A DNA stretch of 64,000 nt from Nitrospiria bacterium (GTDB lineage: Bacteria; Nitrospirota; Nitrospiria; JACQBZ01), in NCBI GenBank assembly GCA_035498035.1, contig DATKAN010000023.1, positions 1 to 64,000 on the forward strand. The letters run 5' to 3'. This document shows, one piece after another, positions 12,714-59,823 of the stretch. Position 1 is the first letter of the stretch; every line of letters begins with the position of its first letter. The notes below the pieces were generated by a model, which ran no database searches, had not been told where the DNA came from, and was given only the letters and a program-made list of their open reading frames with translations. Position numbers and translations under genes: made by a program.

Positions 12714-14162
12714 CTACGCCTGTCTCAAGCGATGCGGGGGCGGCCGGTCGGAGGTTTTGGCCTTCCGACGGGATACGCATACGGTATTTCGGCCGGCGCG
12801 CTTGGCCTCATACAGCGCCTTGTCGGCCTCCGCGATGAGATCGAAGGCCGTTGCCGCGCTCTCCGGGTAGGAGGCCGCGCCGACGCTGACGGTCAGTTTC
12901 TTGTTAGGCTGCTTGTGCCCGTTTTCGAATTTGTGAGAGGCGATCCGTTTCCGGAGGCGTTCGGAAAGGACGAAGGCCCGGCGGCGTTTTGTTTCGGGCA
13001 TGATGATCGCAAACTCCTCCCCGCCGTAACGGGCGACGATGTCCACCTCCCGGCTGGTCTCTTTGAGGATCCGGCCCACTTCCTTCAGCACCTCATTGCC
13101 CTTCAGGTGACCGTTGGTGTCGTTGTAGTGTTTGAAATAATCGATGTCGATCATCATGAGGGAGAGCGACCGTCCGTAGCGATCGGCCCGGTTGGTTTCG
13201 ATGTTCAGCTGCTGGCGGAAATGGCGGTGGTTGTAAAGCCCGGTCAATTCATCCGTGATGGCCAGCTGGCGGGTGGACTCCAGCAGCTTCGTCTTTTCGA
13301 TCGCCATCGCGGCGAAAGTGGACAGGAGCGACAGGAGCGAGATCTCGCGGGTGGTGTACTGGCGCGGTTTGAAGTCGTCGACGTAGAGAATCCCCACGAT
13401 CCGCCCCTCGGTTTTAAGCGGCGAGGCGATGAGGGAGCGGATGCCTTCCCGCACCATGATGGGGTTGTCGAACCTCGGGTGCCGCCGGATGTCCTGGACC
13501 GCCAGCGGCTGGTCCTGATTCAAGATGTGGCTGGTCAGCCCGCCCTGGCGGACCTTCCATCGCGTCTTGTTCGAGAACCGCCTCGTGACCCCTTTGACGG
13601 CGGCGAGGGACATCTCGCCCCGTTTCTCCTCGAAAATGGTGAGGCTTCCGGCCGGCGTGTTCGTCAGGCTGGTGGCGTAATCCACGATCGTTTGATAAAG
13701 CTTCTCCGGGTTTTCGCTGGCCGTGAGCTTCAGGCCGAGATCGTAGAGGGACTGATACTCGATCAGCAGGCGTTCGATCTCCTCCCGGCTCTTGATCCGG
13801 GCCTCCACCATTCGCCACATCAAGCGGGCGCTGTACCCCCCGATGATCTCGGCGCCGGGAACGAGGCTCGCGATGTCCCGTCCGATCGCGGGGTTCTTGG
13901 TCACGTCCATGACGATGTCGACGGGATGGGGCTTCAGCAATTTCCGGTAATCGGCGGTATGCCGGATCCTCAGGCGTTTGGCGAGAAGGATCCCCGGGGC
14001 CTTCCGGTTGAGGTCGGCGATGCCGACGATCCGGACGGTGGGATCGTTGAACAGGAGCTCGACGAGCGCCCGGCCTCCCCGGCCTCCGCCGATGATGGCG
14101 ATGTTGACCCGGTTGTTCGCGGACGGGGCCTTTTCCCCTCCGGCCTTGGCGACCTTATTCAA
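12714..14162 (-). CDS. Diguanylate cyclase with N-terminal Rossmann-like and GAF domains
   Basis: The 482-residue protein would make cyclic di-GMP. Its N-terminal ~130 residues form a nucleotide-binding Rossmann-like region: 'VNIAIIGGGRGGRALVELL', an Asp at the end of strand 2 in 'VGIADLN', and 'VDIVMDVTKN'. A helix leads to a GAF domain (about 155-310, with 'GIRSLIASPLKTEGRIVGIL'), then a GGDEF domain (about 320-475). The active-site motif is GGEEF, with an intact RxxD inhibitory site five residues upstream (REVD-IVARY-GGEEF). The TTG start overlaps the mutS stop, so the gene is translationally coupled to mutS. A dinucleotide-sensing input is inference from the fold-like N-terminus. Confidence 0.9.
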   Translation of the reverse strand: MNKVAKAGGEKAPSANNRVNIAIIGGGRGGRALVELLFNDPTVRIVGIADLNRKAPGILLAKRLRIRHTADYRKLLKPHPVDIVMDVTKNPAIGRDIASLVPGAEIIGGYSARLMWRMVEARIKSREEIERLLIEYQSLYDLGLKLTASENPEKLYQTIVDYATSLTNTPAGSLTIFEEKRGEMSLAAVKGVTRRFSNKTRWKVRQGGLTSHILNQDQPLAVQDIRRHPRFDNPIMVREGIRSLIASPLKTEGRIVGILYVDDFKPRQYTTREISLLSLLSTFAAMAIEKTKLLESTRQLAITDELTGLYNHRHFRQQLNIETNRADRYGRSLSLMMIDIDYFKHYNDTNGHLKGNEVLKEVGRILKETSREVDIVARYGGEEFAIIMPETKRRRAFVLSERLRKRIASHKFENGHKQPNKKLTVSVGAASYPESAATAFDLIAEADKALYEAKRAGRNTVCVSRRKAKTSDRPPPHRLRQA

Positions 14163-45156: not shown

Positions 45157-45184
45157 TTGACAGCGGAGGAAAAACTGCTATATT
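45157..45184 (+). promoter_or_regulatory. Predicted promoter of the riboswitch-controlled operon
   Basis: TTGACA (45157-45162) and TATATT (45179-45184) have a 16-base spacer. Transcription would start near 45191, leaving a ~220-base leader that contains the c-di-GMP aptamer and terminator. Confidence 0.7.
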
Positions 45185-45272
45185 TGATACCGAAACATTT
45201 TTCATTTCCGGGAAGGAATTTCGTCGGCCCGCATCCCGGACGGTTTCGAACCAATCGCAACACGACATTTGA

Positions 45273-45330
45273 CCCTTTGATCAGAGCAAACCAGGGGAAA
45301 CCCTGGGACGCAGAGCAACGGGGCTAAAGG
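45273..45330 (+). ncRNA. Cyclic di-GMP-I (GEMM-I) riboswitch aptamer
   Basis: The consensus of this class is visible in order. The P1 strand CCTTT (45274-45278) is followed by AGAGCAAACC and the hairpin CCAGGGGAAACCCTGG with a GAAA tetraloop. GGGACGCAGAGC follows, then the second short stem and CTAAAGG, which closes P1. The tetraloop, the GACGCA(A/G)AGC core and the GCAAACC receptor are the ligand-binding features. It lies in the leader of the triheme lipoprotein gene and is followed at once by an intrinsic terminator, so c-di-GMP should control transcription read-through. Whether ligand turns the operon on or off cannot be decided by eye. Confidence 0.93.
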
Positions 45331-45356
45331 AGGAAAGTTCTCTTCCAGGCCCGCCG

Positions 45357-45391
45357 AGCCGCCGAAGGAAATTCCTTTGGCGGCTTTTTTT
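45357..45391 (+). terminator. Intrinsic terminator of the c-di-GMP riboswitch expression platform
   Basis: AGCCGCC-GAAGGA (45357-45369) pairs with TCCTTT-GGCGGCT (45373-45385), followed by seven T's and TATTTTT. It lies 27 bases after the aptamer and before the ribosome-binding site GAGGAGGG. Confidence 0.9.
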
Positions 45392-45412
45392 ATTTTTGGC
45401 GAGGAGGGACCC

Positions 45413-47860
45413 ATGAAAGGAAAAAATCGCATTCTTGGCTGGGGAATCGGCGGACTTTTTATTCTTTCTTCCGGATACTATCTTGCATCCTGCACATCGT
45501 CGAGTAATCTGACGGACCAGAATGATCCCTCCGGGATCGTCTTCGTCAAGCGTTCAGTCGATGCGATCGGCAATCCGCTCGATCCGATCGAATTCAAGGC
45601 GGGGGGAGATCTTTTTACACTGGTTCCGGGAACCGCTTCGGGAAAACTTCAAAATATCACCGCGGACATGACCCAGGGGGCGGGAGACGTCTCGGATCCG
45701 GAGATTTTTCCCCAGACCGACGGGGGGCCCTTTCGACTGGTCTTCTCGATGAACAAGGGGAACGGGGACCACTGGCATGTGTATGAAGTTCAGGTCAATC
45801 AGGACGGAAGCCGCGTCGCCCAACCGGTCCAGTTGACCTGCGGGTCCGCCGACGAACTCTCCCCGGCCTATCTTCCGGACGGGCGGATCGTCTTCGCGTC
45901 GAACCGTCCCGGCTATCTCGACGAGTACGAACGGAGGGTATCGACCGTTCTTCACATACTCGACCGCGCCAAGGCGCCGCTGCCCGGCCAGCCTTCCTGC
46001 GATTCGGGGGAGGTCGTCCAGATTTCCTTCAACCAGAGTCACGACCGCAATCCGATCGTCCTTCGGGACGGGACCATCCTCTACAGCCGCTGGGAGCACC
46101 TCGGGACGGTCAACAAGTTCGCCATTTTCTTCATGGAGCCGGACGGAACCGACATGTTCGTCAAGTACGGTTCGCATTCGAACGTGAACTCCTTTCTGGA
46201 TCTTCGCGAGCAGGCGGACGGAAGCCTGGTGGCGACCATGATGCCTTTGAGCGGAACCTACGAGGGAGGGGCGATCGGACGGCTCGACATCGTCGACAAG
46301 GCCGATGATCCCCAAACCCCTTCGCTCCAGCTGACCGGCCCCCAGGTGATTCCGACCGATCGGCAGCCGTCCAATTTCGGACGGTATCACAACGTTTATC
46401 CCCTTCCGGACGGGACCCCTCGCTATCTCGCCTCCTATTCGATCGGGAAGGTGGTGAACGATCCGAAAAATAAAATCGTGGAGGAACCCGATTACGGGCT
46501 CTGGATGCTCAACAACGGCGACGGGACGCTCAAGCCGATCCTGCTTCCGAACAGCGGGAGCCGGCAGGCCTACCTCGACCCGATTCCGCTGATGCCCGTC
46601 CCGGCGTCGATGATCCCCACGGCCAAGCCCCAGAAGGCGGCCAATCGAAGCGCGATGGGGACGACGGGGGTGCTCGCCGCCGCGAGCGTGTACGATTCCG
46701 AGGCCAACCGGGCCCTGTCCAATCAGGTTCTGGGTGTGACGATCCCCCGGGACGCCGGCGGCAACATCGATTTCAACGCCCTTTGCAACGATCCGAGCCT
46801 CCAGGTCGTCAAACAGGTCCGGGTGATCCAGGCGGTCCCGAGCCAGCCCGGGGTCGGAACGGAGGACATCGGTCTGACCGAGTTCGAGCGCCAGAGGATC
46901 CTCGGCTATGCTCCGGTCGAATGCGACGGCTCCTTCCGCGTCACCGTGCCCGCGGACACGAGCCTGACCTTGAATTTGGTCGATGCGCAAAGCCGTTCTT
47001 TCAAGGTGAAGGAGAATTGGCTTCAAGTCCGGCCCGGGGAAAACCGGACCTGCAACGGCTGTCACTCCCCGCGGCGGGGAAGCCCCCAGCGTCTGGCGAC
47101 GGATTCCTTCGCGCTCAACCGGCCCCCGTCCACCCTCATTCCCCCGACGATTTCGGTGCTTTCTTTCAACGCGAATATCCAGCCGATCCTCACGGCCAAG
47201 TGTGTCTCCTGCCATTCGCTTTCGGATCAAAATCATGATGGCATTCCGGACACGCCCGCCGCGGGCGGCCTCGACCTAAGCACCGATCAATCCGGCGCCG
47301 GATTCCCGATCTCCTACACGAGTCTTCTTGATGGCAATATGAACGGATCGGATCGTGTCTTCCCCGGAGAGTCGCAGCAAAGTTACCTCATCGAACGGAT
47401 GTTCGGTCAGGAGCTCCGTTCCCCCCGTTCCGTGCCGTTCCCGGACTCGAATAGCCATGGGACGTTGCTGAGTGCGGATGAAAAACAGACCCTGGTCGAA
47501 TGGATCGATCTGGGGGCGCAGTTCAGCAATGCGGGCGTCATCAGCAACCCCGGCCGGAAGCGACTGGACCAGAATGTCTTCACGACAACAATCCAGCCGA
47601 TTCTTTTAAAGCGCTGCGGCCAGTGCCACGTGGCCGGCGGCGACAGCAATTTTGTCCTGACCGGAGACAAGGAGGAGGGCGATTTCAACGCCGCGGCGGC
47701 CCGTGTGAACGTGACCAATCCGTCTCAAAGCATCCTGCTCCTGAAAGCCACCGGGACGGTTCCGATGCTCGTGAACGGAACGGCGGTCACCCCTCCGCCG
47801 CTTTCGACCGCGGACGCGGACTACGCGACCCTTCTCAACTGGATAACGGCGGCGCAGTGA
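45413..47860 (+). CDS. Triheme c-type cytochrome lipoprotein with beta-propeller (hydrazine-synthase-alpha-like)
   Basis: This is an 815-residue exported lipoprotein (Cys27 in YLASCTSS). Residues ~80-330 contain propeller-like repeats ('ELSPAYLPDGRIVFASNRPGY', 'DRNPIVLRDGTILYSRWEHL') found in TolB/PD40 domains and in the alpha subunit of hydrazine synthase. Three haem sites lie in the C-terminal third: CNGCH at ~547, CVSCH at ~597 and CGQCH at ~735. The last two are each preceded by IQPIL. It likely sits in the outer membrane or periplasm and moves electrons or senses redox state. The hydrazine synthase beta and gamma genes are absent, so hydrazine chemistry is not implied. Expression is under the c-di-GMP riboswitch. 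Confidence 0.88.
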   Translation: MKGKNRILGWGIGGLFILSSGYYLASCTSSSNLTDQNDPSGIVFVKRSVDAIGNPLDPIEFKAGGDLFTLVPGTASGKLQNITADMTQGAGDVSDPEIFPQTDGGPFRLVFSMNKGNGDHWHVYEVQVNQDGSRVAQPVQLTCGSADELSPAYLPDGRIVFASNRPGYLDEYERRVSTVLHILDRAKAPLPGQPSCDSGEVVQISFNQSHDRNPIVLRDGTILYSRWEHLGTVNKFAIFFMEPDGTDMFVKYGSHSNVNSFLDLREQADGSLVATMMPLSGTYEGGAIGRLDIVDKADDPQTPSLQLTGPQVIPTDRQPSNFGRYHNVYPLPDGTPRYLASYSIGKVVNDPKNKIVEEPDYGLWMLNNGDGTLKPILLPNSGSRQAYLDPIPLMPVPASMIPTAKPQKAANRSAMGTTGVLAAASVYDSEANRALSNQVLGVTIPRDAGGNIDFNALCNDPSLQVVKQVRVIQAVPSQPGVGTEDIGLTEFERQRILGYAPVECDGSFRVTVPADTSLTLNLVDAQSRSFKVKENWLQVRPGENRTCNGCHSPRRGSPQRLATDSFALNRPPSTLIPPTISVLSFNANIQPILTAKCVSCHSLSDQNHDGIPDTPAAGGLDLSTDQSGAGFPISYTSLLDGNMNGSDRVFPGESQQSYLIERMFGQELRSPRSVPFPDSNSHGTLLSADEKQTLVEWIDLGAQFSNAGVISNPGRKRLDQNVFTTTIQPILLKRCGQCHVAGGDSNFVLTGDKEEGDFNAAAARVNVTNPSQSILLLKATGTVPMLVNGTAVTPPPLSTADADYATLLNWITAAQ

Positions 47861-48321
47861 CGCGGTTGTTTTTTAGACAGACCGTCATGCCGATGACGCT
47901 TGGGATGTTCGTGTGCATCGGAGCCGGATGCGGAACGGTCGACCCCGGCGTGGATTCGGGAGCCGGGAGTTTGGACTACGACGAATTTAAGGCGAATATC
48001 CAGCCCGTCTTTGATAGCCGGGGCTGCTCGAATTCAAATTGTCATTACCGGGATAAGAATAATCCAAATTCCGGCGGACCCGGAGGGAGCCTTCGGATCT
48101 TCAATTGTAAAACGGACCCCTGCACGGAGGATCAGTTCCGGGCCAACTTCGATTCCGCCTCCGGGATGACCGATATCGCGAATCCGGCGGGCAGCAAGCT
48201 TCTGCTCAAGCCCCTGGCCGTGTCGGCCGGCGGGATCCAGCACCTCGGGGGGGATATCTTTCCGAATACGAGCGATCCCGATTATCTCACGATTTTGAGT
48301 TGGATCCAGAGCCCGCTTTGA
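47857..48321 (+). CDS. Small cytochrome-c-like lipoprotein with CX4CH haem site
   Basis: This protein of ~154 residues is translationally coupled to the triheme gene through a GTGA overlap; an ATG at 47887 would be an alternative start. It has a lipobox-like 'CIGAGC' and then 'ANIQPVFDSRGCSNSNCHYRD'. This repeats the IQPIL-Cys pattern of the preceding protein, but with four residues between the cysteines (CSNSNCH) instead of two. 'NPAGSKLLLKPL' and 'YLTILSWIQ' complete the usual cytochrome-domain end. Haem attachment at CX4CH is known in some cytochromes and is inferred here. It looks like a detached fourth haem domain. Confidence 0.75.
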   Translation: MTRLFFRQTVMPMTLGMFVCIGAGCGTVDPGVDSGAGSLDYDEFKANIQPVFDSRGCSNSNCHYRDKNNPNSGGPGGSLRIFNCKTDPCTEDQFRANFDSASGMTDIANPAGSKLLLKPLAVSAGGIQHLGGDIFPNTSDPDYLTILSWIQSPL

Positions 48322-49085
48322 ACGCGATCCGTCGAGAAACCCGGTCTCGATTGTCCCTGTTGCTCCTTTGTCTGGGGCCTTTCATCGCGGCGGAGACCGC
48401 CTTCGGAGAGGAGGCCTATCAGAAGGCGTCGGTGGTCGAACCGTTTCTCGAGATTCATACCGGACCGGGAAGGAGCTATCCGGTTTTTTACGTTGCCGAA
48501 CGGGGGGAGGAGATTCTCCTGTTGAAGCGCCGGACGGACTGGTATCGGATCCGATTGTCCAACGGAAAGGAAGGGTGGGTTAATCGGGCGGATATCGAAA
48601 AGACCCTTCTGGCCCAGGGCCGGAATAAAGGGGTGATGGACCGGATCTACGACGATTACCTGGCCGACCGCCTGGAGCTGGCGTGGGGAGCGGGGACCTT
48701 CGGCGGGGATCCCTCTCTCAGCGTTCGGATGACCTACCTCCTGACGGACGTCCTTTCCCTGGAGGGAGGGGCCAACTTCGTCTCGAGCGATCAGGGAAGC
48801 ATTGATCTCTATCAGGGGGGGATCGTGGTCACCCCGTGGCGCTGGCGCTGGCTGTCCGTTTCGGCGACGGTGGGCGGCGGCATCGTCTCTGCGACGCCGT
48901 CGAGTCTCGTGGTCGGCGTGACCAAAAAAACGTTTCAGGAGGCCCATGCCGGTATCGGGATTTCGATTCCCCTGGTCCGGAACCTCTTCGCCCGGGGCGA
49001 TTTCCGGAATTACACCGTCTTCATGAGCCCGGAGCGGACGCGGGAGTTTCAGGAGTACGGCATCGGACTCTCATTTCGGTTCTAG
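48318..49085 (+). CDS. SH3-like domain plus outer-membrane beta-barrel protein
   Basis: This protein of ~255 residues appears to start at a TTG overlapping the previous stop. After a signal peptide (AFGEE) there is a bacterial SH3 domain (about 35-95: 'LEIHTGPGRSYPVFYVAERG', 'WYRIRLSNGKEGWVNRADI'), which may bind peptidoglycan. A barrel domain of alternating strands follows, ending 'EYGIGLSFRF' with the C-terminal Phe signature. The same SH3-barrel pairing is found in myxobacterial Glt/Agl-like clusters, as are its neighbours. Function is unknown. Confidence 0.75.
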   Translation: MNAIRRETRSRLSLLLLCLGPFIAAETAFGEEAYQKASVVEPFLEIHTGPGRSYPVFYVAERGEEILLLKRRTDWYRIRLSNGKEGWVNRADIEKTLLAQGRNKGVMDRIYDDYLADRLELAWGAGTFGGDPSLSVRMTYLLTDVLSLEGGANFVSSDQGSIDLYQGGIVVTPWRWRWLSVSATVGGGIVSATPSSLVVGVTKKTFQEAHAGIGISIPLVRNLFARGDFRNYTVFMSPERTREFQEYGIGLSFRF

Positions 49086-49093
49086 GGTTGAGA

Positions 49094-49735
49094 ATGCCTA
49101 AGCGGATTGTGTTGACGATGGGCGTAATCGGATTCCTGCTCGGAGGGCTTTTTTCTTCCGCCCGGGCCGAGAATTTTCCGCAGGGCGAAGAACCGATCAT
49201 CAAACCGCCCGTCGAGGAGCAAAAGTTGAAGGAGGCCAAGATCGATACCGAGTCGCTGGAGATGGGTCCTTATTACGGCGTGTACGCCCTGGACGGTTTC
49301 GGCACCTCGGGGGTCTACGGCTTTCGGCTGGCCTACCATTTGACGGAGGACGTCTTTTTCGAGGGGACCTACGGGATCACCCGGTTCAACCAGGAGACGT
49401 TTCGTCGTTTAACCGGCCGTTCCCTCGTGGCCGATGAGAACATCACGTACTGGAATGCCGGTGCGGGTTATAATCTTTTCCCGGGGCAGATTTTCCCGAC
49501 CCGCAAGAGGACGTTGAATTCGACGATCTACCTGCTCGGGGGCCTGGGTCAAACCCAGATCGACCGGCAGGCCCATTTCACCTTCGACGCGGGAACCGGC
49601 TATAAAGTCTTCATCGTGGACTGGTTTGAGGTTCGGGTGGAGCTTCGAACGCACATCCTTCAGACCGACCTCACCGGAGCGAACGAGATCATGAAAAATA
49701 TCGAAGGGACGGCGGCCTTCGCGGTCTTTTTCTGA
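49094..49735 (+). CDS. Outer-membrane beta-barrel domain protein
   Basis: This is a 213-residue barrel with a signal peptide (SSARAEN). The sequence 'YYGVYALDGFGTSGVYGFRLAYHLTEDVFFEGTYG' resembles the myxobacterial-type outer-membrane barrel family whose members sit beside Glt gliding genes. It ends 'TAAFAVFF', a barrel C-terminus. It follows the SH3-barrel gene after eight bases. Together the two could be the outer-membrane anchors of the complex encoded downstream. Confidence 0.75.
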   Translation: MPKRIVLTMGVIGFLLGGLFSSARAENFPQGEEPIIKPPVEEQKLKEAKIDTESLEMGPYYGVYALDGFGTSGVYGFRLAYHLTEDVFFEGTYGITRFNQETFRRLTGRSLVADENITYWNAGAGYNLFPGQIFPTRKRTLNSTIYLLGGLGQTQIDRQAHFTFDAGTGYKVFIVDWFEVRVELRTHILQTDLTGANEIMKNIEGTAAFAVFF

Positions 49736-49745
49736 GAGGTGCCCG

Positions 49746-50258
49746 ATGAATAAGGCGATGAATAAGACAAAAACGATCCCCCTGTTCCTGGCGGTCCTGA
49801 TGTTCTTCGGCCCCGGTCCGGCTCACGGCGCCGGACAGGGAGAAAAGGCGCCCGATTTCACGGGAAAAACCCTCGTGGGAAAAAACGTCAAGCTCAGCGA
49901 GCTGAGGGGGCATATCGTCCTGCTTAATTTTTGGGGGACCTGGTGCGCCCCATGTAAAGAGGAGCTTCCCTACTTCAACCGGATATACGGGAAATATAAA
50001 GGGGTCGGTCTCGAGATCCTGGCCGTGAACGTGGACAAGGTCGCCGCGCAGGCGGCGGGGATGAGCGGCGCCTTGGGCCTGACCTTCCCGGTCGTCCTGG
50101 ATCCCTCCGGCGATCTGTTCAACCTCTATCGGATCCGAAACATGCCGACCACGTTTGTCGTGGGCAAGGACGGCCTGATTCACTACGTTCATTGGGGATT
50201 CGGACCCAACGATCCGCCGCGTTACGAATCGGAGATCAAAGGCCTCCTGAAGGATTGA
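49746..50258 (+). CDS. TlpA/ResA-like periplasmic thioredoxin
   Basis: The 170-residue protein has a signal peptide (AHGAG) and a thioredoxin fold with 'LLNFWGTWCAPCKEELPYF' (CAPC active site), 'IRNMPTTFVVGKDGLI' (cis-Pro) and 'HWGFGPND'. ResA/TlpA proteins reduce disulfides in the periplasm, often those of apocytochromes, which suits the cytochromes upstream. Its stop overlaps the next start (TGATG). Confidence 0.9.
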   Translation: MNKAMNKTKTIPLFLAVLMFFGPGPAHGAGQGEKAPDFTGKTLVGKNVKLSELRGHIVLLNFWGTWCAPCKEELPYFNRIYGKYKGVGLEILAVNVDKVAAQAAGMSGALGLTFPVVLDPSGDLFNLYRIRNMPTTFVVGKDGLIHYVHWGFGPNDPPRYESEIKGLLKD

Positions 50259-50485
50259 TGGGAATGAAATCCTTGTTTTGGCTCTTGATGGGCCTCATGA
50301 TCGCCCTGACCGGGGTCTCGGGATGTGCCTCGGTGAAACCCTGGGAGCGGGAGTATCTCGCGGACGAGACGATGCAGTTTGACCCCGACCCCTTGATGGC
50401 CCAATGGTACCAACATGTGCGGGAAATCCGGGAAGGGGGGCGGGGCGGGTTCAACGGTACCGGCGGGGGTTGCGGTTGCAGGTGA
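50258..50485 (+). CDS. DUF4266 lipoprotein
   Basis: This is a 75-residue lipoprotein (VSGCASVKPWEREYLAD) with 'MQFDPDPLMAQWYQHVREI' and a Gly-rich end closing in 'GGGCGC'. The DUF4266 pattern is exact, including the 'WER..LA...M' stretch. It regularly precedes DUF3570 genes. ATG 50258 overlaps the previous stop; ATG 50264 is an alternative. The C-terminal paired cysteines invite metal or redox binding, but function is unknown. Confidence 0.88.
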   Translation: MGMKSLFWLLMGLMIALTGVSGCASVKPWEREYLADETMQFDPDPLMAQWYQHVREIREGGRGGFNGTGGGCGCR

Positions 50486-51663
50486 CGAAAGCCCGACGGG
50501 TGAGCCCTGCGGCGGGCCGGGAACGGCGGGGCCCGGGACGCCTGGTGAAGGCCGTTCTGTTGATCGCCTGGTTCGTCGTTCCCATCGAGCGATCCGGGGC
50601 GATCGAACCCGCTCAGGATGAGGTCGAGGCCGGCTACAATTACTACCACGGAGGGGGAGTGACCGTTCAGGGTCCCGCGGTCATCGTGCGGAAGGATATC
50701 TTGAACGGGGGCTCGCTGAAAGCGGGTTACAACGTGGATATCGTCAGTTCGGCCTCGATCGATGTGGTGACCCAGGCCAGTCCGTACAAAGAGACACGAA
50801 AGGAATACAGCCTGGGCACGGATATTTTACGCGGCGACACGCTGGTCGGTGTGGACTACATCAACAGCCGTGAATCGGACTATCTGTCCGACACGCTTTC
50901 GGTCGCGCTGGCACACGATCTATTCGATAAAAACACGACCTTCAGCCTGAAGGTGGCCCGCTCCTGGGACCAGGTCGGGAAAAATAACGACCCGGCCTTC
51001 GGTTGGAATAAGTTCAATCGAACGGTTTATTCGACCGGGATCACACAGTCCCTGACGCCCCTGTGGCTGATCCAGTTTAATTATGAGCTCACCGCCGACG
51101 AGGGTCTCATCAATAACCCTTATCGCAGCGCCATAACCCTGGATGGGGCGCTGGTGCCCGAAAACTACCCGGACGCACGGACCGGACAGGCCTGGGCCCT
51201 CCGGACCAGCTACGGAATTGCCTCCGCCGGCTCCGACGGGGGATACGGGGGCATCCGGGGTTCGGTTCAACTCGATTACCGCTACTATCAGGACACCTTT
51301 GATGTCCACTCCCAGACCGCCAAGATTACGCTTCAACGCTATTTCTTCTCGGACTGGCTGGGCGGAGTTTTTTATCAGTACTACTGGCAGGATGCGGCGA
51401 GTTTTTATGGAGACCGCTTGCCGCCGGGTCAGCTTTACAAGGCGCGGGACAAGGAGCTCTCCCAATACCATGATCAATGGGTCGGCTTGACGCTGAAATA
51501 TAAACTTAAACAGGCGCAATGGGGCATCATCCGTAATCCCTATGTCCAGGTCAGCAACAGCTGGATGGTATTCAACTATGACAACTTCACCGATCCGCGC
51601 ACGGGCGCGCTCTATTCACAGAGGGTCTATGTCGTCCATACGGATTTGGGTTTCAATTATTAG
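50482..51663 (+). CDS. DUF3570 outer-membrane protein
   Basis: This protein of ~393 residues begins at a GTG overlapping the DUF4266 stop. After a basic, hydrophobic leader it shows repeated beta-strands ('GYNYYHGGGVTVQGPAVIVRK', 'SLGTDILRGDTLVGVDYINS'), Tyr-rich alternating segments and a barrel-like end 'VVHTDLGFNY'. This is the DUF3570 family, predicted outer-membrane barrels encoded with DUF4266 and ApbE. It may carry or receive flavin-linked partners, but that is inference from gene order. Confidence 0.85.
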   Translation: MTKARRVSPAAGRERRGPGRLVKAVLLIAWFVVPIERSGAIEPAQDEVEAGYNYYHGGGVTVQGPAVIVRKDILNGGSLKAGYNVDIVSSASIDVVTQASPYKETRKEYSLGTDILRGDTLVGVDYINSRESDYLSDTLSVALAHDLFDKNTTFSLKVARSWDQVGKNNDPAFGWNKFNRTVYSTGITQSLTPLWLIQFNYELTADEGLINNPYRSAITLDGALVPENYPDARTGQAWALRTSYGIASAGSDGGYGGIRGSVQLDYRYYQDTFDVHSQTAKITLQRYFFSDWLGGVFYQYYWQDAASFYGDRLPPGQLYKARDKELSQYHDQWVGLTLKYKLKQAQWGIIRNPYVQVSNSWMVFNYDNFTDPRTGALYSQRVYVVHTDLGFNY

Positions 51664-52660
51664 CGTCCCTTTCCTCGGCGGTCTGCTTGTTTCCCTTCCG
51701 GCCCACGGGGAAGAGGCCCCGGAATACCTCGTGAGCGAGAATCGGGCCCTCATGGGAACCGAGGTGATCATCAAGGCGGTCGGGGACAAGCGTCCGGAGA
51801 TGGAGCGGGCCGTGCAGGACGCCTTCGATGAGATTTCCCGGCTGGAACGGATGATGAGCAACTTTATGCCGACCAGCGAGCTTTCGCACATCAATCAGCA
51901 GGCCGGGAAGGCGCCGGTCCCGGTCAGCCGGGAGCTTTTTTCGGTGATCCAGAAGTCCTTGTATTTTTCCGAACTCACGGAGGGGACCTTCGACATCTCC
52001 TTTGCCTCCGTCGGCAAACTCTGGGATTTTCGGGCCGGGATCCTGCCGTCTCCGGAGGCGATCGCCCGGCAACTCCCTTTTGTCGATTACCGGAAGATTC
52101 AAATGAACGAGAAGGACTCGAGCGTATTTCTTCCGTATCCCCAGATGGAGATCGGCCTCGGAGGGATCGGGAAGGGCTACGCGGTCGACCGGGCCATGGA
52201 CGTGCTCACGAAGCACGGGATCCATGATGCCGTCGTCATGGCGGGAGGGGATATGCTGGTCAAGGGGAAAAAGGGAAAGGATCTCTGGCGGGTCGGTCTT
52301 CGCGATCCGGACGACAAGAACAAGATCCTTGCGGTCCTGCCGCTGGAGGACAAGGCCGTCTCGACCTCGGGGGACTACGAACGGTTTTTTATCAAGGACG
52401 GCGTCCGCTATCATCACATCATCGATACAAGGACGGGATACCCTGCCCGCCTCTGCCGGAGCGTGACGCTTCTGGCGAAAGACGCGACCACCACCGACGG
52501 CCTTACCAAAGGGGTGTTTATCCTCGGTCCCGAGCGGGGGATGGCCCTGGTCGAGCGGATCGGCGGCGTGGACGCGATCATCATCGACGTCCAGGGGAAG
52601 ATGCATCTTTCATCCGGGTTGACCTCGTTGAAGTCGGAAGGAGCGAAGAGCGGAAAATGA
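51629..52660 (+). CDS. apbE: FAD:protein FMN transferase (ApbE)
   Basis: ApbE attaches FMN to a Thr/Ser of exported proteins. The 343-residue protein overlaps the DUF3570 gene by 35 bases and has an N-terminal signal sequence. Motifs are 'ALMGTEVIIKA', 'FDEISRLERMMSNFMPTSE', 'GGIGKGYAVDRAMD', 'SGDYERFF', 'HHIIDTRTGYPA' and 'TTDGLTKGVFILG', the last carrying the metal-binding residues. It is probably active. No clear flavinylation target motif (such as DGxTGAT) was found among the neighbours, so its substrate is an open question. Confidence 0.93.
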   Translation: MSSIRIWVSIISVPFLGGLLVSLPAHGEEAPEYLVSENRALMGTEVIIKAVGDKRPEMERAVQDAFDEISRLERMMSNFMPTSELSHINQQAGKAPVPVSRELFSVIQKSLYFSELTEGTFDISFASVGKLWDFRAGILPSPEAIARQLPFVDYRKIQMNEKDSSVFLPYPQMEIGLGGIGKGYAVDRAMDVLTKHGIHDAVVMAGGDMLVKGKKGKDLWRVGLRDPDDKNKILAVLPLEDKAVSTSGDYERFFIKDGVRYHHIIDTRTGYPARLCRSVTLLAKDATTTDGLTKGVFILGPERGMALVERIGGVDAIIIDVQGKMHLSSGLTSLKSEGAKSGK

Positions 52661-53205
52661 AAATGCCTAGCCCAATCGTCGTCCTTTTTCTTCTCGTTTT
52701 ATTGCTCCTTCCGCCCCGTCTTTCCAGGGCCCAGGAGGCGGGCGCGCCTCCCCAGGAGATGGAGAACCTCGACGGCCAGGTTCAGGATCTTAAGCAAAAG
52801 ATCCTGGATCTGAACACGCTTCTCTTCCGGCTTCAGGAAGACCTGCTCTTTCCGGAGGACTCCTCCGTTGCGGTATTCTTTGCGATGGAGGGGGGGAATT
52901 ACTTCGCGCTCGATTCGGTCAAACTCAACCTGGACGATAAGCTGGTCTCAAGCTATCTGTACACCGACCGGGAGGTCGGCGCGCTAAAAAAAGGGGGCAT
53001 TCAACGCCTCTACATGGGAAACGTGAAGTCCGGCGACCACGAATTGGTGGCGATCTTCACGGGAAAGGGGCCGCAGGAAAAGGATTACAAACGGGCCGAG
53101 ACGGTTCGTTTCAACAAGGGGGACGGGGCCGCCTTTATTAAAATCATCATACGGGACAGTCCGGAAAAAGAGCAACCCGAGTTCGCCTATGAAACGTGGA
53201 ATTAA
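52657..53205 (+). CDS. Exported coiled-coil protein of a Glt-like cluster
   Basis: This is a 182-residue protein with a signal peptide (LSRAQ). A coiled coil follows at about 35-62 ('ENLDGQVQDLKQKILDLN'), then a beta-rich domain with 'SVAVFFAMEGGNYFALDSVKL', 'SYLYTDREVGALKKGGIQ' and 'HELVAIFTGKGP'. The same small protein recurs ahead of TPR/AgmX genes in delta-proteobacterial clusters. It overlaps its neighbours at both ends. Function is unknown. Confidence 0.75.
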   Translation: MKMPSPIVVLFLLVLLLLPPRLSRAQEAGAPPQEMENLDGQVQDLKQKILDLNTLLFRLQEDLLFPEDSSVAVFFAMEGGNYFALDSVKLNLDDKLVSSYLYTDREVGALKKGGIQRLYMGNVKSGDHELVAIFTGKGPQEKDYKRAETVRFNKGDGAAFIKIIIRDSPEKEQPEFAYETWN

Positions 53206-55054
53206 AACAGCGCTGTTTTTCCCGATCATAATGATTCTCGGTTTCAATGTCTCCCCGGTTCGGGCGGAAGGGCCCTCGGTCAATTTTGAAAAAAGGGCGG
53301 AGGTCCTGCAACAGGAGGCCTACTATCATTTCTTCCTGGGAGACTATCTCACCTCGGCCACCCGGTTGAAGTTGGTCGAGGAAACGGCCGGAAACAGCGA
53401 GAAGATTTTAAACGACACCCGTCTGCTGCTGGGGGGTCTTTACATCGCCTGGGGGATGTATCGTCCCGCGTCCCTCCTTTTCGACCGATGGGTCGGACAA
53501 TTCCCGACGGGGAGCAGCCGGAGCCAGCTCCTCCTCCTGATCGAGCGGCTTCAATATCGCCGCGCACTCTATCAGTCGGCGATCGACACCTTCGGATTGT
53601 TATCCCCGGTCGAAGGTTTTGAATCGACGGATCAGGCGCGTTACCTGGCCGGGATGAGTCATTACATCCGGGGCGATTTTCAGGAAGGGATCCGCGTCCT
53701 GGAAGCGATTCCTCCCTACAGCGGATACTCCCCCTTCGCCCGTCTGGCCGTCGCCCAGTCCTACGCCGGGCTGGAAGATTTCGAAAAATCGATCGCCCTT
53801 CTGAAAAGTCTGGGGGAACTCCCTCCCCGCGGGGACCCGGCGCTCCAGGCCTTTACCGAGAAGAGCCGTCTGATCCTGGGCTTTCTCCTGATGGAGCGGG
53901 GACGGTTTCAAGAGGCCCGGACGGCCTTCGCTTCCATTCCGAAATCCAGCCCGTTTTATCCCGATGTCCTTTTCGGAGAGGGGTGGGCGGATTTCAATGC
54001 GGGACGTTACTCGGAAGCCCTCCCGCCTTTTCAGGAACTGTTCCAAACCTTTCCGGATCATGCCTACGCCCTGGAGGGACTGATTCCCATCGGAGGGAGT
54101 TATCAGAAACTGGGGGCCTTCGCGAAGTCCCTTCAAAGCTACGGGGAGGCCCTCGACATTTACGGCCGGAAGGAGAAAGAAATCGGCGAGCTTCGAGGCT
54201 TGATACAGGACCGGGATCGACTCGCCGCATGGCTCGCCCCACCGGAGCATCCTCAAGAAGACCGCTTGATTCCTTTTCTGGATGACGACCTGCTTCGGTT
54301 TCGGATCGGCCAGTATCGGGAGGTCTCCTCTCTGGTGGCCTATCTCGACCGGAAGGTGGCGGACATGGGAGTCTTTCAGATCATGGTCGATCACCGGGAA
54401 GAGGTCTTCCAGGGACACCTTCCCACTCTCCGACGGTTTCTGGACGACGATCCGGTCAAGGCGCTTCAAGAAAAGGGACGGCTCCTCCGGGCCCGGCTCG
54501 AACGGGCGATCCATCAGGAAGATGTGGAGGCCCTGGCCACCCGCCGGGAAAGGGAAGAATTCGACCAATTGACCGGGGCGCAAGCGGAGGGAAGGGAACT
54601 GCAGAGGGCGATCGGGAAGGCGAGAGGCGCCTCGCGGGATTTGGAGGCGTTGAAAAAAGATTTGGAGGCGGCCAACCGCCGGCTGGCTCTGGCTCGGGGG
54701 GAACTCCTCTGGAGGGTGATCACCGAGGCGCCCGGTAGAATCGACGACCTTCGGAGAAGCGCGGGAAAGCTCGAGGAAGGCCTGGAAACGCTGTCCGAAC
54801 GGCGGGCCCGGTTGACGGCCTCGATCCCGTCCATGGAGGGGAATATCGAACGGTTTCGCCAGAGAATTCATGCGGCCCATCAAGCCCTCCTGGAGAAGGA
54901 AGATACGGCCCTTGATCTTCAAAGGAGACTGCTTCCCCCTTTGCAGGCCCTCTTGTTGCAGGCCCTCGACAAAAAGCGGGGTCGGATCGAGCAACTGGCG
55001 GCCGTGGCGAAGCTGAACCAGATCCAGATCATGGATCTAAAGAGTCGGCCATGA
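53189..55054 (+). CDS. Exported TPR-repeat protein
   Basis: The 621-residue protein has a signal peptide (PVRAEG), then about ten helical TPR/Sel1-like repeats (to ~400; e.g. 'DQARYLAGMSHYIRGDFQEG', 'LFGEGWADFNAGRYSEALPP'). A long coiled-coil region follows to the C-terminus ('RAIGKARGASRDLEALKKDL', 'LQRRLLPPLQALLLQALDKK'). It overlaps the upstream gene by 17 bases and the following one by four. Comparable proteins scaffold the periplasmic part of Glt-type complexes. This is a similarity of architecture, not a proven orthology. Confidence 0.8.
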   Translation: MKRGIKTALFFPIIMILGFNVSPVRAEGPSVNFEKRAEVLQQEAYYHFFLGDYLTSATRLKLVEETAGNSEKILNDTRLLLGGLYIAWGMYRPASLLFDRWVGQFPTGSSRSQLLLLIERLQYRRALYQSAIDTFGLLSPVEGFESTDQARYLAGMSHYIRGDFQEGIRVLEAIPPYSGYSPFARLAVAQSYAGLEDFEKSIALLKSLGELPPRGDPALQAFTEKSRLILGFLLMERGRFQEARTAFASIPKSSPFYPDVLFGEGWADFNAGRYSEALPPFQELFQTFPDHAYALEGLIPIGGSYQKLGAFAKSLQSYGEALDIYGRKEKEIGELRGLIQDRDRLAAWLAPPEHPQEDRLIPFLDDDLLRFRIGQYREVSSLVAYLDRKVADMGVFQIMVDHREEVFQGHLPTLRRFLDDDPVKALQEKGRLLRARLERAIHQEDVEALATRREREEFDQLTGAQAEGRELQRAIGKARGASRDLEALKKDLEAANRRLALARGELLWRVITEAPGRIDDLRRSAGKLEEGLETLSERRARLTASIPSMEGNIERFRQRIHAAHQALLEKEDTALDLQRRLLPPLQALLLQALDKKRGRIEQLAAVAKLNQIQIMDLKSRP

Positions 55055-57858
55055 GGATCATCGCGATCGGATCCTGCCTTTTCCTGCTCGTCGGGTGCAG
55101 TCTCGGCAAAGACACGCGACGGGCCGAAGGACAGGCCTCATTGACCGTCCAGGAAATCGAGACGCTTCGGCAAGAGCCGGTGAACGCCCGGGAAGGATCG
55201 GTGGTGAAAGAGTACGAGGATTTCCTGAACCGCTACCATCCGGTCGATCCCGCCTTGAAAACACAGGCCCTGAAGCGCTTGGGCGACCTTTATCTTGATG
55301 GCGCGAATCGGCGCTTCCTCAAGGCGATGGAGGCTTATGAGGCCCACCCCGACGGACCGCCGCCTTTGGTCGACGATACGAGGGCGATCGAGACCTATGA
55401 AGAACTGCTTCGTTTCAGTCCGGATTACCGAGAGAACGATCAGGTCCTCTATGCGCTCGCTCGCGCCTACGCCGAAATGGGAGACCGGGAGAAGGCCGTG
55501 GCGGCCATCGAGCGACTCCGGAAGGATTATCCGGGGAGCCGCTACCGGCAGGAGGCCTCTTTCCGCTTGGGCGAGTATTATTTTGATCAGCGCCGATATG
55601 GGGAAGCCGCGGCGGCCTATGAACAATCCCTGACCTTCAAGGACCCTTTTTTCGTCGACAAGGCGCAGTACAAACTCGGGTGGACGTATTTCAACATGAA
55701 AGAATACGAAAAAGCGATCGATCACTTCCTTCGGCTCGTGAATCAGAAGGTGACCTCGGAAGCCGATCTCTCCGCCGAGAAGGGTTCTTTGGTCTGGGAG
55801 GCCCTGACCTATGTGGCGACCTCGTTTCGGATGCTCGGGGGGGCCGTTCCGCTCTCGACGTATTTTCGCGGCAACGGGGCGCCCCTCTACGAAAAAGAAC
55901 TCTACACGATGATCGGAAATCAGTATATGTCCGATGGGGATTTCTCCTCGGCCGCCGGGACCTACCGGATGTTTATCCGGGAACATCCGCTCCATCCCAT
56001 GGCCCCGATCTTCCTGTCCTACATCCTCGAAATCGACGAGAAACAAAAGGACCCGGAGGCCGCCGAGCAGGCGCGGATTCAATTGGTGACGGACTACGCC
56101 TCCAGAAGCCCCTGGTACCGGGCCAATGACGAAGCGGCCCGCGCCCGCTCTCGTCCTCTCGTGAAAGCCGCGCTTTATCGCCTGGCCCTCTCGGCCCATT
56201 CCCGCGCCCAGGCCGTGAAGGACGACGAGGACTACCGGAAGGCCGCGGGCTGGTATAGACAATTTCTGACCGAGTTTCCACAAGAGAAAGAAGCGCCGGA
56301 TGTCCATCTGTTTCTGGCCGAGACACTTTTTACCTTGCAAGAGTTCTCCCAAGCCGGAGCGGAATATGTGGCCGCCGCCTACGGTGACCCGAAAAACGGC
56401 GTCAATGAGAAGGCCGCCTATGACGCGGTCGTGGCGTATGAAAAAATGAAGAGCCGGGCGGGAGACGATCGGGTGATCGATCTTTCCAAGCGCTTTGCCG
56501 CCGCTTTTCCTCGGGATCCGAAAGCCCCCGCCTTGTTGTTAAAAGCGGGTGAGATTCTCTATGAGGAAGGTCGCTACGACGAGACGCTCGGTGTCCTGAA
56601 GGACTTTCCGGCCCGTTTTCCAGGAAACGAGGGAGCGACGACCGCGCTCAAACTTGTGGCGCACAGCTATACGAGGGAGGGGCGTTTCGAGGAGGCCCGA
56701 CAGGGCTACCGTCAGACCCTGGCCTCCCTTCCCCCGTCGGATTTGAAGGGGCGTCGGGAGATCGCCGATCTGTTGGCCGCGTCCGTTTATAAACAAGGGG
56801 AAGACCGAAAGCGGAAAAACCGGTCGGAGGAGGCGGCCCGCCTCTTTGAAGACGTGGCCGACGAGGCCCCGCAGAGCGACCTGGCCCCGCGGGCCCTTTT
56901 CGAGGCCGCGGAGATCCGCGAGGGGATGAAGCAGCCCGAAAAGGCGATCGCCATTTATCGGAGGCTGGTCCTTCTCTCTCCGGATTCGACGCTTTCGGGC
57001 CAGGCGCTCGTCCAGGTCGGTTTATTGTATGAAAATGAGGAAAAATGGATCCAATCCGCGGACGCCTATGTCTCCGCCGCGGAGCGGATTCGGGACGAGA
57101 GTCTTGTCCCCCATCTTCTCTTCACGGCCGGTCTTTATTACGAGAAGGGCGCGCAGTGGGAGAGGTGCTACGAGTCCTTCTCGCGCTTCAGCGAGCGTTT
57201 TCCCCAAAACCCGGATGCGGCTGAAGCCTTGTTCAAGATGGCCCATGCCCGGCAGAATCAGAAAAAAAATCGGGAGTCGCTGAAACTCTTTGAAAAGGTC
57301 GAACAACAATACCCCGCGACCCCGTTTGCGGCCGAGGCCCTCTTTCAGATCGGGGAGGAGGCCTTCAGGAATTTTAAGACCATCCGCTTGGAGAAGCCTT
57401 TGAACAAAACCCTGAAAAAGAAGGCCAAGGCCATGGAAAAGGCGGTCGACCTTTACAGAAAGGCCATCGAAACCCGGTATGCCGATGTGGTCACGGCCTC
57501 TTCTTACCGTTTGGGAGAGATTTTTGAGAATTTTAAATCATCCCTGCTGGAAGCGGAACTCCCTCGTAACCTGAATAAGGAAGAGCAGGAAGAATACCGT
57601 TTCCAACTCGAGGAGAAGGCCTTTCCCTTTGAGCAAAAGGCGGTTGAAGCCTATTTCAGCAACGTGCGAAGGATCCAAGACCAGAACAGCCCTTATAACG
57701 ATTGGATCAAAAAAAGTTACGAGCGTCTGGCCGAGCTGAGGCCCGCCCTGTATCGCAGACCGGAAAGGACGGAGCGGGTTGTCACCGATATCGGTCAAGG
57801 TCATTTATCGACCCAAGCGACGCAAGACCCCCCGGCAAAAATGGTGCAGGCGCGATGA
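55051..57858 (+). CDS. Large TPR lipoprotein (GltE/AglT-like)
   Basis: This is a 935-residue lipoprotein (LLVGCSLGKD, Cys16) made almost wholly of TPR units: 'QVLYALARAYAEMGDREKAVA', 'FRLGEYYFDQRRYGEAAAAYE', 'AQYKLGWTYFNMKEYEKAID', 'ALFKMAHARQNQKKNRESLKLFE'. In size, lipidation and position it corresponds to the adventurous-gliding lipoprotein GltE of Myxococcus. It would be anchored to the outer membrane facing the periplasm. Coupled by ATGA overlaps on both sides. Confidence 0.82.
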   Translation: MRIIAIGSCLFLLVGCSLGKDTRRAEGQASLTVQEIETLRQEPVNAREGSVVKEYEDFLNRYHPVDPALKTQALKRLGDLYLDGANRRFLKAMEAYEAHPDGPPPLVDDTRAIETYEELLRFSPDYRENDQVLYALARAYAEMGDREKAVAAIERLRKDYPGSRYRQEASFRLGEYYFDQRRYGEAAAAYEQSLTFKDPFFVDKAQYKLGWTYFNMKEYEKAIDHFLRLVNQKVTSEADLSAEKGSLVWEALTYVATSFRMLGGAVPLSTYFRGNGAPLYEKELYTMIGNQYMSDGDFSSAAGTYRMFIREHPLHPMAPIFLSYILEIDEKQKDPEAAEQARIQLVTDYASRSPWYRANDEAARARSRPLVKAALYRLALSAHSRAQAVKDDEDYRKAAGWYRQFLTEFPQEKEAPDVHLFLAETLFTLQEFSQAGAEYVAAAYGDPKNGVNEKAAYDAVVAYEKMKSRAGDDRVIDLSKRFAAAFPRDPKAPALLLKAGEILYEEGRYDETLGVLKDFPARFPGNEGATTALKLVAHSYTREGRFEEARQGYRQTLASLPPSDLKGRREIADLLAASVYKQGEDRKRKNRSEEAARLFEDVADEAPQSDLAPRALFEAAEIREGMKQPEKAIAIYRRLVLLSPDSTLSGQALVQVGLLYENEEKWIQSADAYVSAAERIRDESLVPHLLFTAGLYYEKGAQWERCYESFSRFSERFPQNPDAAEALFKMAHARQNQKKNRESLKLFEKVEQQYPATPFAAEALFQIGEEAFRNFKTIRLEKPLNKTLKKKAKAMEKAVDLYRKAIETRYADVVTASSYRLGEIFENFKSSLLEAELPRNLNKEEQEEYRFQLEEKAFPFEQKAVEAYFSNVRRIQDQNSPYNDWIKKSYERLAELRPALYRRPERTERVVTDIGQGHLSTQATQDPPAKMVQAR

Positions 57859-58499
57859 TGAAACGCGTGGATTGGATGACCGGGATTCTATTCCTTGTGC
57901 TTGGGATGACGTCGGCCGGGTGTATCCGGACCTCCCCGGTATCCCCCGTCCCGGCCGTTTCATCGCAACCCGTTCCGGAATTCCGGAACGATTTGTCGCG
58001 TCCTCCGGAACCGGACGGGTCCCTGCTCCAGTTCAAGCAGGGGGTGCGGTTCCTCGAGAACGGGAAGAACGAGGAGGCGCGACTTTTGTTTGAAAGACTT
58101 CGGGACAGCTATCCAAAGACGGGAATTCTTTATGTGAACCTGGGGGTGACCTACAAGCGACTCGGACTCCTCTCGGAGGCGATCGCCTCTTATCAACGGG
58201 CCCTTGAGATCGATCGAAGCGACGCGGAGGTTTATTACAATTTGGCCATTGCCCTGCGTGAGGAGGGGGAGTTTCGAAAGGCCGAGGCGGCCTACAAAAC
58301 CGCCCTGATTATTTCTCCGGATTTTACGGATGCCCATTACAATCTGGCCGTCCTTTACGACCTCTACCTCAACGACCCGGGCGAGGCCATCCGCCATTAT
58401 CAACGGTTTTTGGAGCTGGGGGGAGGGGATTCGAAAGAAATCCAGATCTGGATCTCGGCCCTTCAGAAAAGGATCGACGAGTCAAGGAGGGCCCCATGA
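57855..58499 (+). CDS. Small TPR lipoprotein
   Basis: This is a 214-residue lipoprotein (TSAGC, Cys23) with four TPR units: 'QFKQGVRFLENGKNEEARLLF', 'LYVNLGVTYKRLGLLSEAIASYQ', 'YYNLAIALREEGEFRKAEAAYK' and 'DAHYNLAVLYDLYLNDPGEAI'. It resembles a PilF/NlpI-type adaptor. Overlap with the genes on both sides keeps it in the same operon. Its role is presumably protein-protein docking in the envelope complex. Confidence 0.8.
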   Translation: MMKRVDWMTGILFLVLGMTSAGCIRTSPVSPVPAVSSQPVPEFRNDLSRPPEPDGSLLQFKQGVRFLENGKNEEARLLFERLRDSYPKTGILYVNLGVTYKRLGLLSEAIASYQRALEIDRSDAEVYYNLAIALREEGEFRKAEAAYKTALIISPDFTDAHYNLAVLYDLYLNDPGEAIRHYQRFLELGGGDSKEIQIWISALQKRIDESRRAP

Positions 58500-58852
58500 A
58501 GCCCTTCCTGATAGGGGCGATCGGATTCCTTATCGGAATTATTCTGTCCGGGGGGACGGGGCTTTCGGCCGACCTCCCCTCCAAGGAGGGCCCGGGGGCC
58601 GAAAAAAGGACCCAGGAACAACCCCAACGGGAAGGATCAACAAACACCGAACGGTTGTTGATGGAGGGGACCGAGATCCAGGGGACGCTTGAGAAACCCC
58701 ATGTGGTCTATGTTATCCCTTGGAAAGTACTTCCCCCTGCGACAGAAGAAGGGGTGCCTCTTCGGAGGAGCTTTACGAACGAAATCCTCGAACCAGTGGA
58801 TCGGGACCAGTTTGAGCATCGGTGGGGCAGCCGCTCCCGCCGACTCCAATGA
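58496..58852 (+). CDS. Small exported protein of the Glt-like cluster
   Basis: This is a 118-residue protein with an N-terminal hydrophobic segment (about 5-24) that could be a signal or anchor. It is followed by a Gly/Pro/charged low-complexity stretch and a compact end 'GTLEKPHVVYVIPWKVLPP'. The segment 'EIQGTLEKPHVVYVIPW' recurs in small proteins beside AgmX genes. No catalytic motif is visible. Its stop overlaps the next start. Confidence 0.7.
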   Translation: MKPFLIGAIGFLIGIILSGGTGLSADLPSKEGPGAEKRTQEQPQREGSTNTERLLMEGTEIQGTLEKPHVVYVIPWKVLPPATEEGVPLRRSFTNEILEPVDRDQFEHRWGSRSRRLQ

Positions 58853-59823
58853 GGACGCATCAACCTATGTCTTATTATCAAGACCAGAATGAGGCGCGTT
58901 TCAGAAAAATCCTTTTGCGTTGCATCGCCTTTTATTTTTCTTTCGCGGCGGCCATGACGCTCCTCCCCATCCCTCATTTAGAAAAGCCTGATTATAAGAA
59001 CCTTCCAAATCGGGTGGCCAAGCTGATTCTGAAGAATCCGGCCCCGATACCGCCCCCGATCGTCCCGGAGGCGGCCAAACCGAATAAAGAACCGGCGAAA
59101 CCCAAATCGGGGAACACCCCGCCTGAAAATTCAAAGAAGCCCGCTCCGAAGAAACGGGAAATTGTAATGAGAAGCGGTCTACTGGGTTCTTTGAATGATG
59201 GGGCTGCCGGGAGGCAATTGAGCGCGATGATCGGAGATAAGAAATTGGACCAAGCGCTCTCGTCCGTTGATCTCATCACCTCCCCCGCGTCACAAAGGGG
59301 TCGGCCTTCCATCAAGAATGCTTTGCCCGCGAAAACGAAGCTCGCGGATCAGAAGATCGCCGGTATCGGCCGGCTCCGGAAAGGGGAGCAGGTCACGCTT
59401 GAAAAAGGGGACGAGGTTGAGCTGGCCCCGTTCCAAGGGAGTTCCCCGGGGGACGGATCGGGCCATCGTGGAGAAAGGCTCGGGAACGGGATAAGCGTCC
59501 GTTTCAAGGGCGGCGGCTCCGGATCCGGAAATGCCTCCATTAACTACGACGCCATTTCGCGAGTTGTCGAGCAGTATAAGGGCGGCCTCATTTATCTCTA
59601 TAACAAAGAGCTCCAGAGTAATCCCACACTGAAGGGAACGATCACGGTCGAATTTTCAATCGACGGAAGCGGAAGAGTCGTTGAGGCCCGTGTTGTAAGC
59701 AGCACGATGGATTATGCGCCGCTGGAAAAAGCTCTGGCCGGCCGGATCAAGATGTGGAAGTTCCCCCACCTCTATGACGGTATTGTTGTTGTGACCTATC
59801 CCTTCGTTTTCTTTCCGGTGTAA
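58849..59823 (+). CDS. AgmX/PglI C-terminal-domain protein (TonB-like)
   Basis: This is a 324-residue protein with one inner-membrane segment near the N-terminus ('ILLRCIAFYFSFAAAMTLLP'). A Pro/Lys-rich periplasmic linker follows, with a ~100-residue C-terminal domain: 'AISRVVEQYKGGLIYLYNKEL', 'LKGTITVEFSIDGSGRVVEA' and 'IKMWKFPHLYDGIVVVTYPFVF'. This is the AgmX/PglI C-terminal domain, a TonB-like module that couples an inner-membrane motor to outer-membrane partners. No ExbB/TolQ or ExbD/TolR gene is nearby. ATG 58849 overlaps the upstream stop; ATG 58867 is an alternative. Confidence 0.88.
   Translation: MRTHQPMSYYQDQNEARFRKILLRCIAFYFSFAAAMTLLPIPHLEKPDYKNLPNRVAKLILKNPAPIPPPIVPEAAKPNKEPAKPKSGNTPPENSKKPAPKKREIVMRSGLLGSLNDGAAGRQLSAMIGDKKLDQALSSVDLITSPASQRGRPSIKNALPAKTKLADQKIAGIGRLRKGEQVTLEKGDEVELAPFQGSSPGDGSGHRGERLGNGISVRFKGGGSGSGNASINYDAISRVVEQYKGGLIYLYNKELQSNPTLKGTITVEFSIDGSGRVVEARVVSSTMDYAPLEKALAGRIKMWKFPHLYDGIVVVTYPFVFFPV

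Follow-up and report, generated by a model that had tools for sequence, protein, structure and literature searches.

This study concerns a riboswitch leader and the operon behind it in a Nitrospiria bacterium (assembly GCA_035498035.1, a 2.67 Mb draft genome of class Nitrospiria). The window, i.e. the whole stretch of DNA analysed, comprises 64,000 nucleotides of contig DATKAN010000023.1. Between 45157 and 45398 a promoter-like sequence, an aptamer of the GEMM-I family and an intrinsic terminator precede two genes for haem lipoproteins and a tight run of further envelope genes (Table 1). The ligand-selectivity base of the aptamer, position 20 in Vc2 numbering, is A (A20) instead of G (G20). 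We consider it probable that this leader, of the GEMM-Ib (A20) type, acts on transcription as an ON riboswitch and controls an envelope operon in response to 3',3'-cyclic GMP-AMP (cGAMP) from a Hypr GGDEF enzyme.

The leader and its competing helices

Across the 64 kb window RF01051 (GEMM-I) is the sole Rfam family above threshold. Its match at 45275-45366 (+) reaches 65 bits (gathering threshold 35; E 1.9e-10), and the alignment spans model positions 1-87, the full length. A preliminary description of this DNA, made from the letters alone, had seen a well-formed GEMM-I aptamer in the leader of a lipoprotein gene and an intrinsic terminator beside it, and had proposed an RF01051 search of the leader; the full-length match confirms the aptamer, and the hairpin of 14 pairs with its U tract confirms the terminator (folding z -5.6, equally stable shuffles 0/200).

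The 5' part of the terminator overlaps the 3' end of the aptamer (45356 vs 45366). In the minimum-energy fold of an aptamer-only fragment, CCUUUG pairs with CGAAGG to form P1, whereas in the fold of the full leader CGAAGG enters the terminator stem (-57.9 kcal/mol vs -40.8 with P1 enforced, energies which leave out tertiary contacts and the ligand). P1 and the terminator stem are mutually exclusive through this common strand, so that a ligand stabilising P1 would block termination. The leader therefore has the appearance of an ON switch, a direction of control suggested by the competing folds. Judged by energies only and with the 5' end extended, P1 stays a minority structure (at most 0.1) whatever the transcript length, hence ligand and kinetics must supply the remainder. 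The arrangement recurs in other leaders: of the 39 A20 leaders in which a terminator was detected, 32 have the P1 strand inside the terminator arm, as compared to 4 of 23 G20 leaders, and across A20 leaders the P1 strands covary with compensatory changes (CCUUUG/CAAAGG, CUCUG/CAGAG).

Position 20 and a predicted cGAMP synthase

The GEMM-I base directly 5' of GCAAA (Vc2 position 20) touches the ligand; G goes with c-di-GMP (cyclic di-GMP) and A with cGAMP, A marking the GEMM-Ib or 3',3'-cGAMP sub-class, and in a cGAMP aptamer from Geobacter the exchange A20G converts the specificity to c-di-GMP (PMC6456294, PMC9481103). By Rfam alignment the leader aptamer has A at this position (45285), and A20 is found in all five GEMM-I aptamers of the source genome. 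Haem-protein genes lie downstream of three of the five, including the operon reported here; the other two encode a multihaem cytochrome with 14 CxxCH sites (L002) and a di-haem oxidoreductase of family DHOR (L004). Of the remaining two aptamers, one precedes the gene for a surface protein of fibronectin type III (L005); the other lies ahead of a fragment of a sigma-54 activator, behind which a small secreted protein is encoded (L003).

The enzyme in question is a GAF-GGDEF protein encoded on contig C58 (31045-32145; genome G000). It has Ser at the equivalent of GacA Ser348, a fully conserved substrate loop and the motif GGDEF, and is the single GGDEF protein of the source genome to combine the three; it carries the Hypr signature, Ser/Thr348 with GGDE[F/Y]. 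At position 304 of Hypr enzymes Arg skews products to c-di-GMP, and Tyr, Ser, Ala and Gln accompany cGAMP. The C58 protein has Phe there, a non-Arg residue as expected for a predominantly cGAMP product. Its top PDB match is the GGDEF domain of Geobacter metallireducens GacA (6d9m, 168 bits vs 127 for the next). With GacA (GSU1658 / Gmet_1914) it shares Ser348, GGDEF, the lack of Arg304 and a GAF region ahead of the GGDEF domain; it differs in lacking a receiver domain (Pfam) beside its GAF domain and in having Phe instead of Tyr at 304. We predict that it is a cGAMP synthase matching the A20 switches, and by this predicted activity the genome would hold a cGAMP synthase alongside its GEMM-Ib aptamers. 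Since position 20 is A and a Hypr GGDEF is encoded in the source genome, the ligand of the leader is probably cGAMP rather than c-di-GMP. On the same grounds c-di-GMP, which the preliminary description took as the ligand, is probably wrong, and its link through c-di-GMP to the sessile/motile decision is not the best reading.

Two other candidate sources of the signal were rejected. No SMODS match, as would mark a CD-NTase (DncV-type), was found in the source genome. The window has a GGDEF gene of its own (12714-14162, - strand), which had been called a diguanylate cyclase and tied to the riboswitch. The gene is cyclase-like; its product has Asn at the selectivity position and the motif GGEEF, and given these residues and the A20 aptamer it was set aside as signal source. 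The product is a GAF-GGDEF protein whose N-terminal ~140 aa have no Pfam match and read like a dinucleotide-binding (Rossmann) domain. Ser is also present in the FHA-like GGDEF protein L027 of the source genome, but in an altered NE context.

Among 270 genomes of the class 37 encode a close relative of the C58 protein, and among 396 of the phylum Nitrospirota 116 do. The selectivity Ser is kept in 51 of 52 inspected C58-type proteins, the source protein included, the remaining one having Gly, and Arg304 occurs in none of the 52. We compared Rfam-located GEMM-I aptamers between families with and without Hypr enzymes, picking the aptamer regions by hand from the matches listed. Position 20 is A in 40, G in 32 and C in one of 73 aptamers from Hypr-bearing families, as against 0 A and 22 G (n=22) in the Hypr-less families f2 and f12 (Fisher p 7e-7, phylogeny and sampling ignored). 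A20 and Hypr enzymes are strongly, though not perfectly, associated. A20 pattern matches in family f2 (AGCAAACCATCAGCATCG...) were discarded as chance matches, as they have no P2 hairpin.

Several variants were seen in passing. In the GacA-like GGDEF protein L231 (genome G454) the selectivity Ser is replaced by Gly. A GEMM-I aptamer of 69.7 bits in L038 (G002, match at 1501) has C at position 20 and possibly an altered ligand specificity. In L141 (G250) two near-identical GEMM-I leaders, at 546 and 3622, lie 3 kb apart before paralogous genes, one with A20 and one with G20; no Hypr enzyme was detected in that genome. Tandem A20 aptamers, several with terminators of their own, precede large surface-protein genes in L132, L134 and L144 (families f1, f9). 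A separate G20 subgroup with the 5' motif CTTCTATCA(T/G)GGCAAAC and several copies per genome is found in L165-L171 (G008), L182 and L185.

The operon and its haem lipoproteins

Between 45413 and 58499 lie about 12 closely spaced genes; the distance from one to the next does not exceed ~60 bases, several of them overlap, and the transcription unit likely runs to ~58499. The two lipoprotein genes, given in the preliminary description as the target, are indeed led by the switch, but this target is too narrow for a conserved operon of this length. Gene order is conserved in L060, L061, L062 and L064, and in G001 and G031/L060 the orthologous operon is likewise headed by an A20 riboswitch. A search of a plasmid collection gave no match. 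A protein with an AgmX/PglI C-terminal domain (58822-59823; NF033768, 87 bits), which resembles the end of the gliding protein GltG, is encoded 323 bases past the operon.

Table 1. Leader elements and operon genes, in window coordinates
Feature	Position	Strand	Evidence
Sigma-70-type promoter, TTGACA-16-TATATT, extended -10	45157-45184	+	11/12 consensus matches, best in 15 kb; known from consensus match alone
P1 5' strand CCUUUG	45274-45279	+	pairs with 45363-45368 in aptamer-only minimum-energy fold
GEMM-I (RF01051) aptamer, A20 / GEMM-Ib type	45275-45366	+	Rfam, 65 bits
Ligand-selectivity base, Vc2 position 20, A	45285	+	Rfam alignment; role of base from PMC6456294, PMC9481103
CGAAGG, P1 3' strand and part of terminator 5' arm	45363-45368	+	mutually exclusive pairings
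Intrinsic terminator hairpin, then U tract to ~45398	45356-45386	+	14 pairs, -24.8 kcal/mol
Lipoprotein: propeller, HZS_alpha middle domain, three CxxCH	45413-47860	+	Pfam PF18582, PF07676 (PD40); 815 aa
Small haem lipoprotein, CX4CH (CSNSNCH)	47887-48321	+	CX4CH and lipoprotein Cys conserved in 6 homologues
SH3 domain and outer-membrane beta-barrel protein	48318-49085	+	Pfam PF08239 over cut-off, PF13505 below cut-off
Outer-membrane beta-barrel, OMP_myx_plus	49094-49735	+	NCBIfam TIGR04565, 119.7 bits vs cut-off 60
TlpA-type thioredoxin	49746-50258	+	Pfam PF00578
DUF4266 small lipoprotein, C-terminal CxC	50258-50485	+	Pfam PF14086
DUF3570 protein (start approximate)	50545-51663	+	Pfam PF12094
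ApbE flavin transferase (start approximate)	51629-52660	+	Pfam PF02424, E 1.1e-84
Conserved secreted protein	52657-53205	+	no Pfam or NCBIfam match; syntenic in 4 other genomes
TPR protein 1	53189-55054	+	Pfam
TPR lipoprotein 2	55051-57858	+	Pfam
TPR lipoprotein 3, last gene of tight run	57855-58499	+	Pfam

The first gene encodes a lipoprotein with lipobox LASC, whose Cys is invariant in 7 homologues, and with the haem-binding motifs CNGCH, CVSCH and CGQCH. Its nearest relatives (62-70% identity) come from metagenome genomes assigned to Nitrospirota, Nitrospirae, Nitrospiria or Nitrospira; the protein of one of them, L061 (Nitrospiria bacterium), is the one also encoded by G021, a genome placed in the same class as the window. 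The HZS_alpha domain is well supported (PF18582, E 2.3e-18, 66.9 bits vs 26.6 cut-off), and in an alignment with hydrazine synthase alpha (5c2v) the regions of the first two CxxCH sites fall on its two haem regions. The protein differs from hydrazine synthase alpha in being a lipoprotein, in its third CxxCH domain, in its score of 96.4 bits against the equivalog cut-off of 800 bits (NCBIfam NF052339) and in that no adjoining beta/gamma subunit was seen. Given the missed cut-off and the extra haem domain, hydrazine synthesis was rejected as function. The lipoprotein nature, the propeller and the three CxxCH sites described at the outset stand, whereas the likeness to hydrazine synthase does not go beyond the middle domain and haem regions one and two. 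An AlphaFold model from 7 sequences was unusable (mean predicted local distance difference test score, pLDDT, 41). The second small haem lipoprotein, which had been described as coupled to the first, was likewise recovered, its CX4CH being invariant in the homologues.

The genes for ApbE, the DUF3570 protein, the DUF4266 protein and the thioredoxin are adjacent. The combination ApbE-DUF3570-thioredoxin-DUF4266 without DsbD is known from 316 published clusters (PMC8238504), and the operon likewise has all four components and no DsbD. It differs from those clusters in that the set is embedded in a larger operon for cytochromes, outer-membrane proteins and TPR proteins, and that DUF3570 lacks the flavinylation motif [S/T]GA[S/T]. 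Because the motif is absent from all five DUF3570 orthologues (source genome and four others), the substrate of ApbE cannot be assigned to DUF3570.

Proposed mechanism, alternatives and significance

From the computed aptamer identity, A20, competing helices, Hypr signature and operon synteny we infer ligand, switching, direction and a role in electron transfer as follows. The C58 enzyme would make 3',3'-cGAMP, which would bind the three-way junction and stabilise P1; CGAAGG would thereby be kept from the terminator, and RNA polymerase would read into the operon from 45413 to ~58499. Without ligand the 14-pair terminator would form and transcription would end at ~45390-45398. The five A20 switches would constitute a small cGAMP regulon of mostly haem and cell-surface proteins. 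The operon encodes haem lipoproteins of the cell surface and beta-barrels, together with TPR scaffolds and proteins of thiol and flavin transfer, and this haem, lipoprotein and beta-barrel content suggests a role in cell-surface electron transfer.

Several observations weigh against this proposal. The source genome has 25 GGDEF-domain matches, mostly canonical, so that c-di-GMP is very likely also present, and A20 aptamers may keep c-di-GMP affinity, as in Desulfobacca acetoxidans (PMC9481103); the switch may thus be dual. A pattern search found A20 aptamers in 8 genomes of family f12, where no Hypr enzyme was found, and A20 alone is therefore not proof of cGAMP; these matches have a different 5' context, often AAAAAAGCAAACC. 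In family f14, conversely, Hypr enzymes are present while the pattern search yielded no A20 aptamer, and the enzyme can hence exist without such switches. No GEMM-I leader reaches the Rfam threshold before the orthologous operons of L061-L064, i.e. riboswitch control is not universal, and distal genes may escape it if internal promoters exist.

Other explanations were weighed. An ordinary c-di-GMP-I (GEMM-Ia) ON switch, in which c-di-GMP from one of the canonical GGDEF proteins prevents termination by holding P1 together in the same way, would agree with the name of the Rfam family (c-di-GMP-I), with the Asp at the selectivity position of most GGDEF proteins of the genome and with the affinity for c-di-GMP that A20 aptamers can retain in part. 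We regard it as unlikely, since all five genomic copies carry A20, published A20/G20 swaps alter selectivity (PMC6456294) and, in the Rfam-sampled set, A20 co-occurs with GacA-like Hypr enzymes and is missing from Hypr-less families. There is also a small chance that the switch answers both messengers at cellular levels and sums them: both enzyme types are encoded in the genome, Hypr enzymes are promiscuous in vitro (PMC6456294) and some natural A20 aptamers have relaxed selectivity (PMC9481103), yet one A20 Geobacter aptamer is ~1200-fold selective (PMC6456294). That the leader has decayed, with an aptamer which no longer switches and a terminator which merely attenuates, might be read from orthologous operons that do without an aptamer. 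It is very improbable for an aptamer of full length and 65 bits, in an arrangement shared with G001 and G031 and with a P1/terminator overlap kept through compensatory changes across A20 leaders.

The proposed cGAMP switch resembles the Geobacter GEMM-Ib (c-AMP-GMP, cyclic AMP-GMP) riboswitches, such as those of pgcA (Gs1761) and Gmet_0970, in its A20 GEMM-I fold, its haem and surface protein targets, a Hypr GGDEF in the genome and its predicted ON direction. It differs in phylum, in target operon and in that its ligand is predicted from sequence. The Hypr-GGDEF/cGAMP-riboswitch pathway has been placed in Deltaproteobacteria including Geobacter, and an ancestral deltaproteobacterial origin was suggested (eLife 2019). 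Our searches of the open-licence literature turned up no paper that connects Nitrospirota with cGAMP riboswitches, and no description of the pair of enzyme and A20 aptamer in this phylum or of the regulated operon. The RNA class and the enzyme class are already known; the phylum and the regulon appear to be new. The cGAMP pathway of Geobacter and other Deltaproteobacteria thus appears, by its sequence hallmarks, to exist in a different phylum.

For annotation this means that the automatic label 'c-di-GMP riboswitch' may name the wrong messenger. Enzyme and A20 aptamers present together in many lineages of Nitrospirota, with haem-protein genes behind the aptamers, would widen the known reach of cGAMP signalling and call the proposed deltaproteobacterial origin of the pathway into question. 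We suggest, tentatively and with more doubt than confidence, that the operon is an undescribed Nitrospirota outer-membrane electron conduit switched on by cGAMP; a circuit from cGAMP to respiratory surface proteins would then be common to two phyla, by common descent or transfer. A cGAMP-controlled operon would provide a defined set of genes for asking how uncultured Nitrospirota move electrons at their surface.

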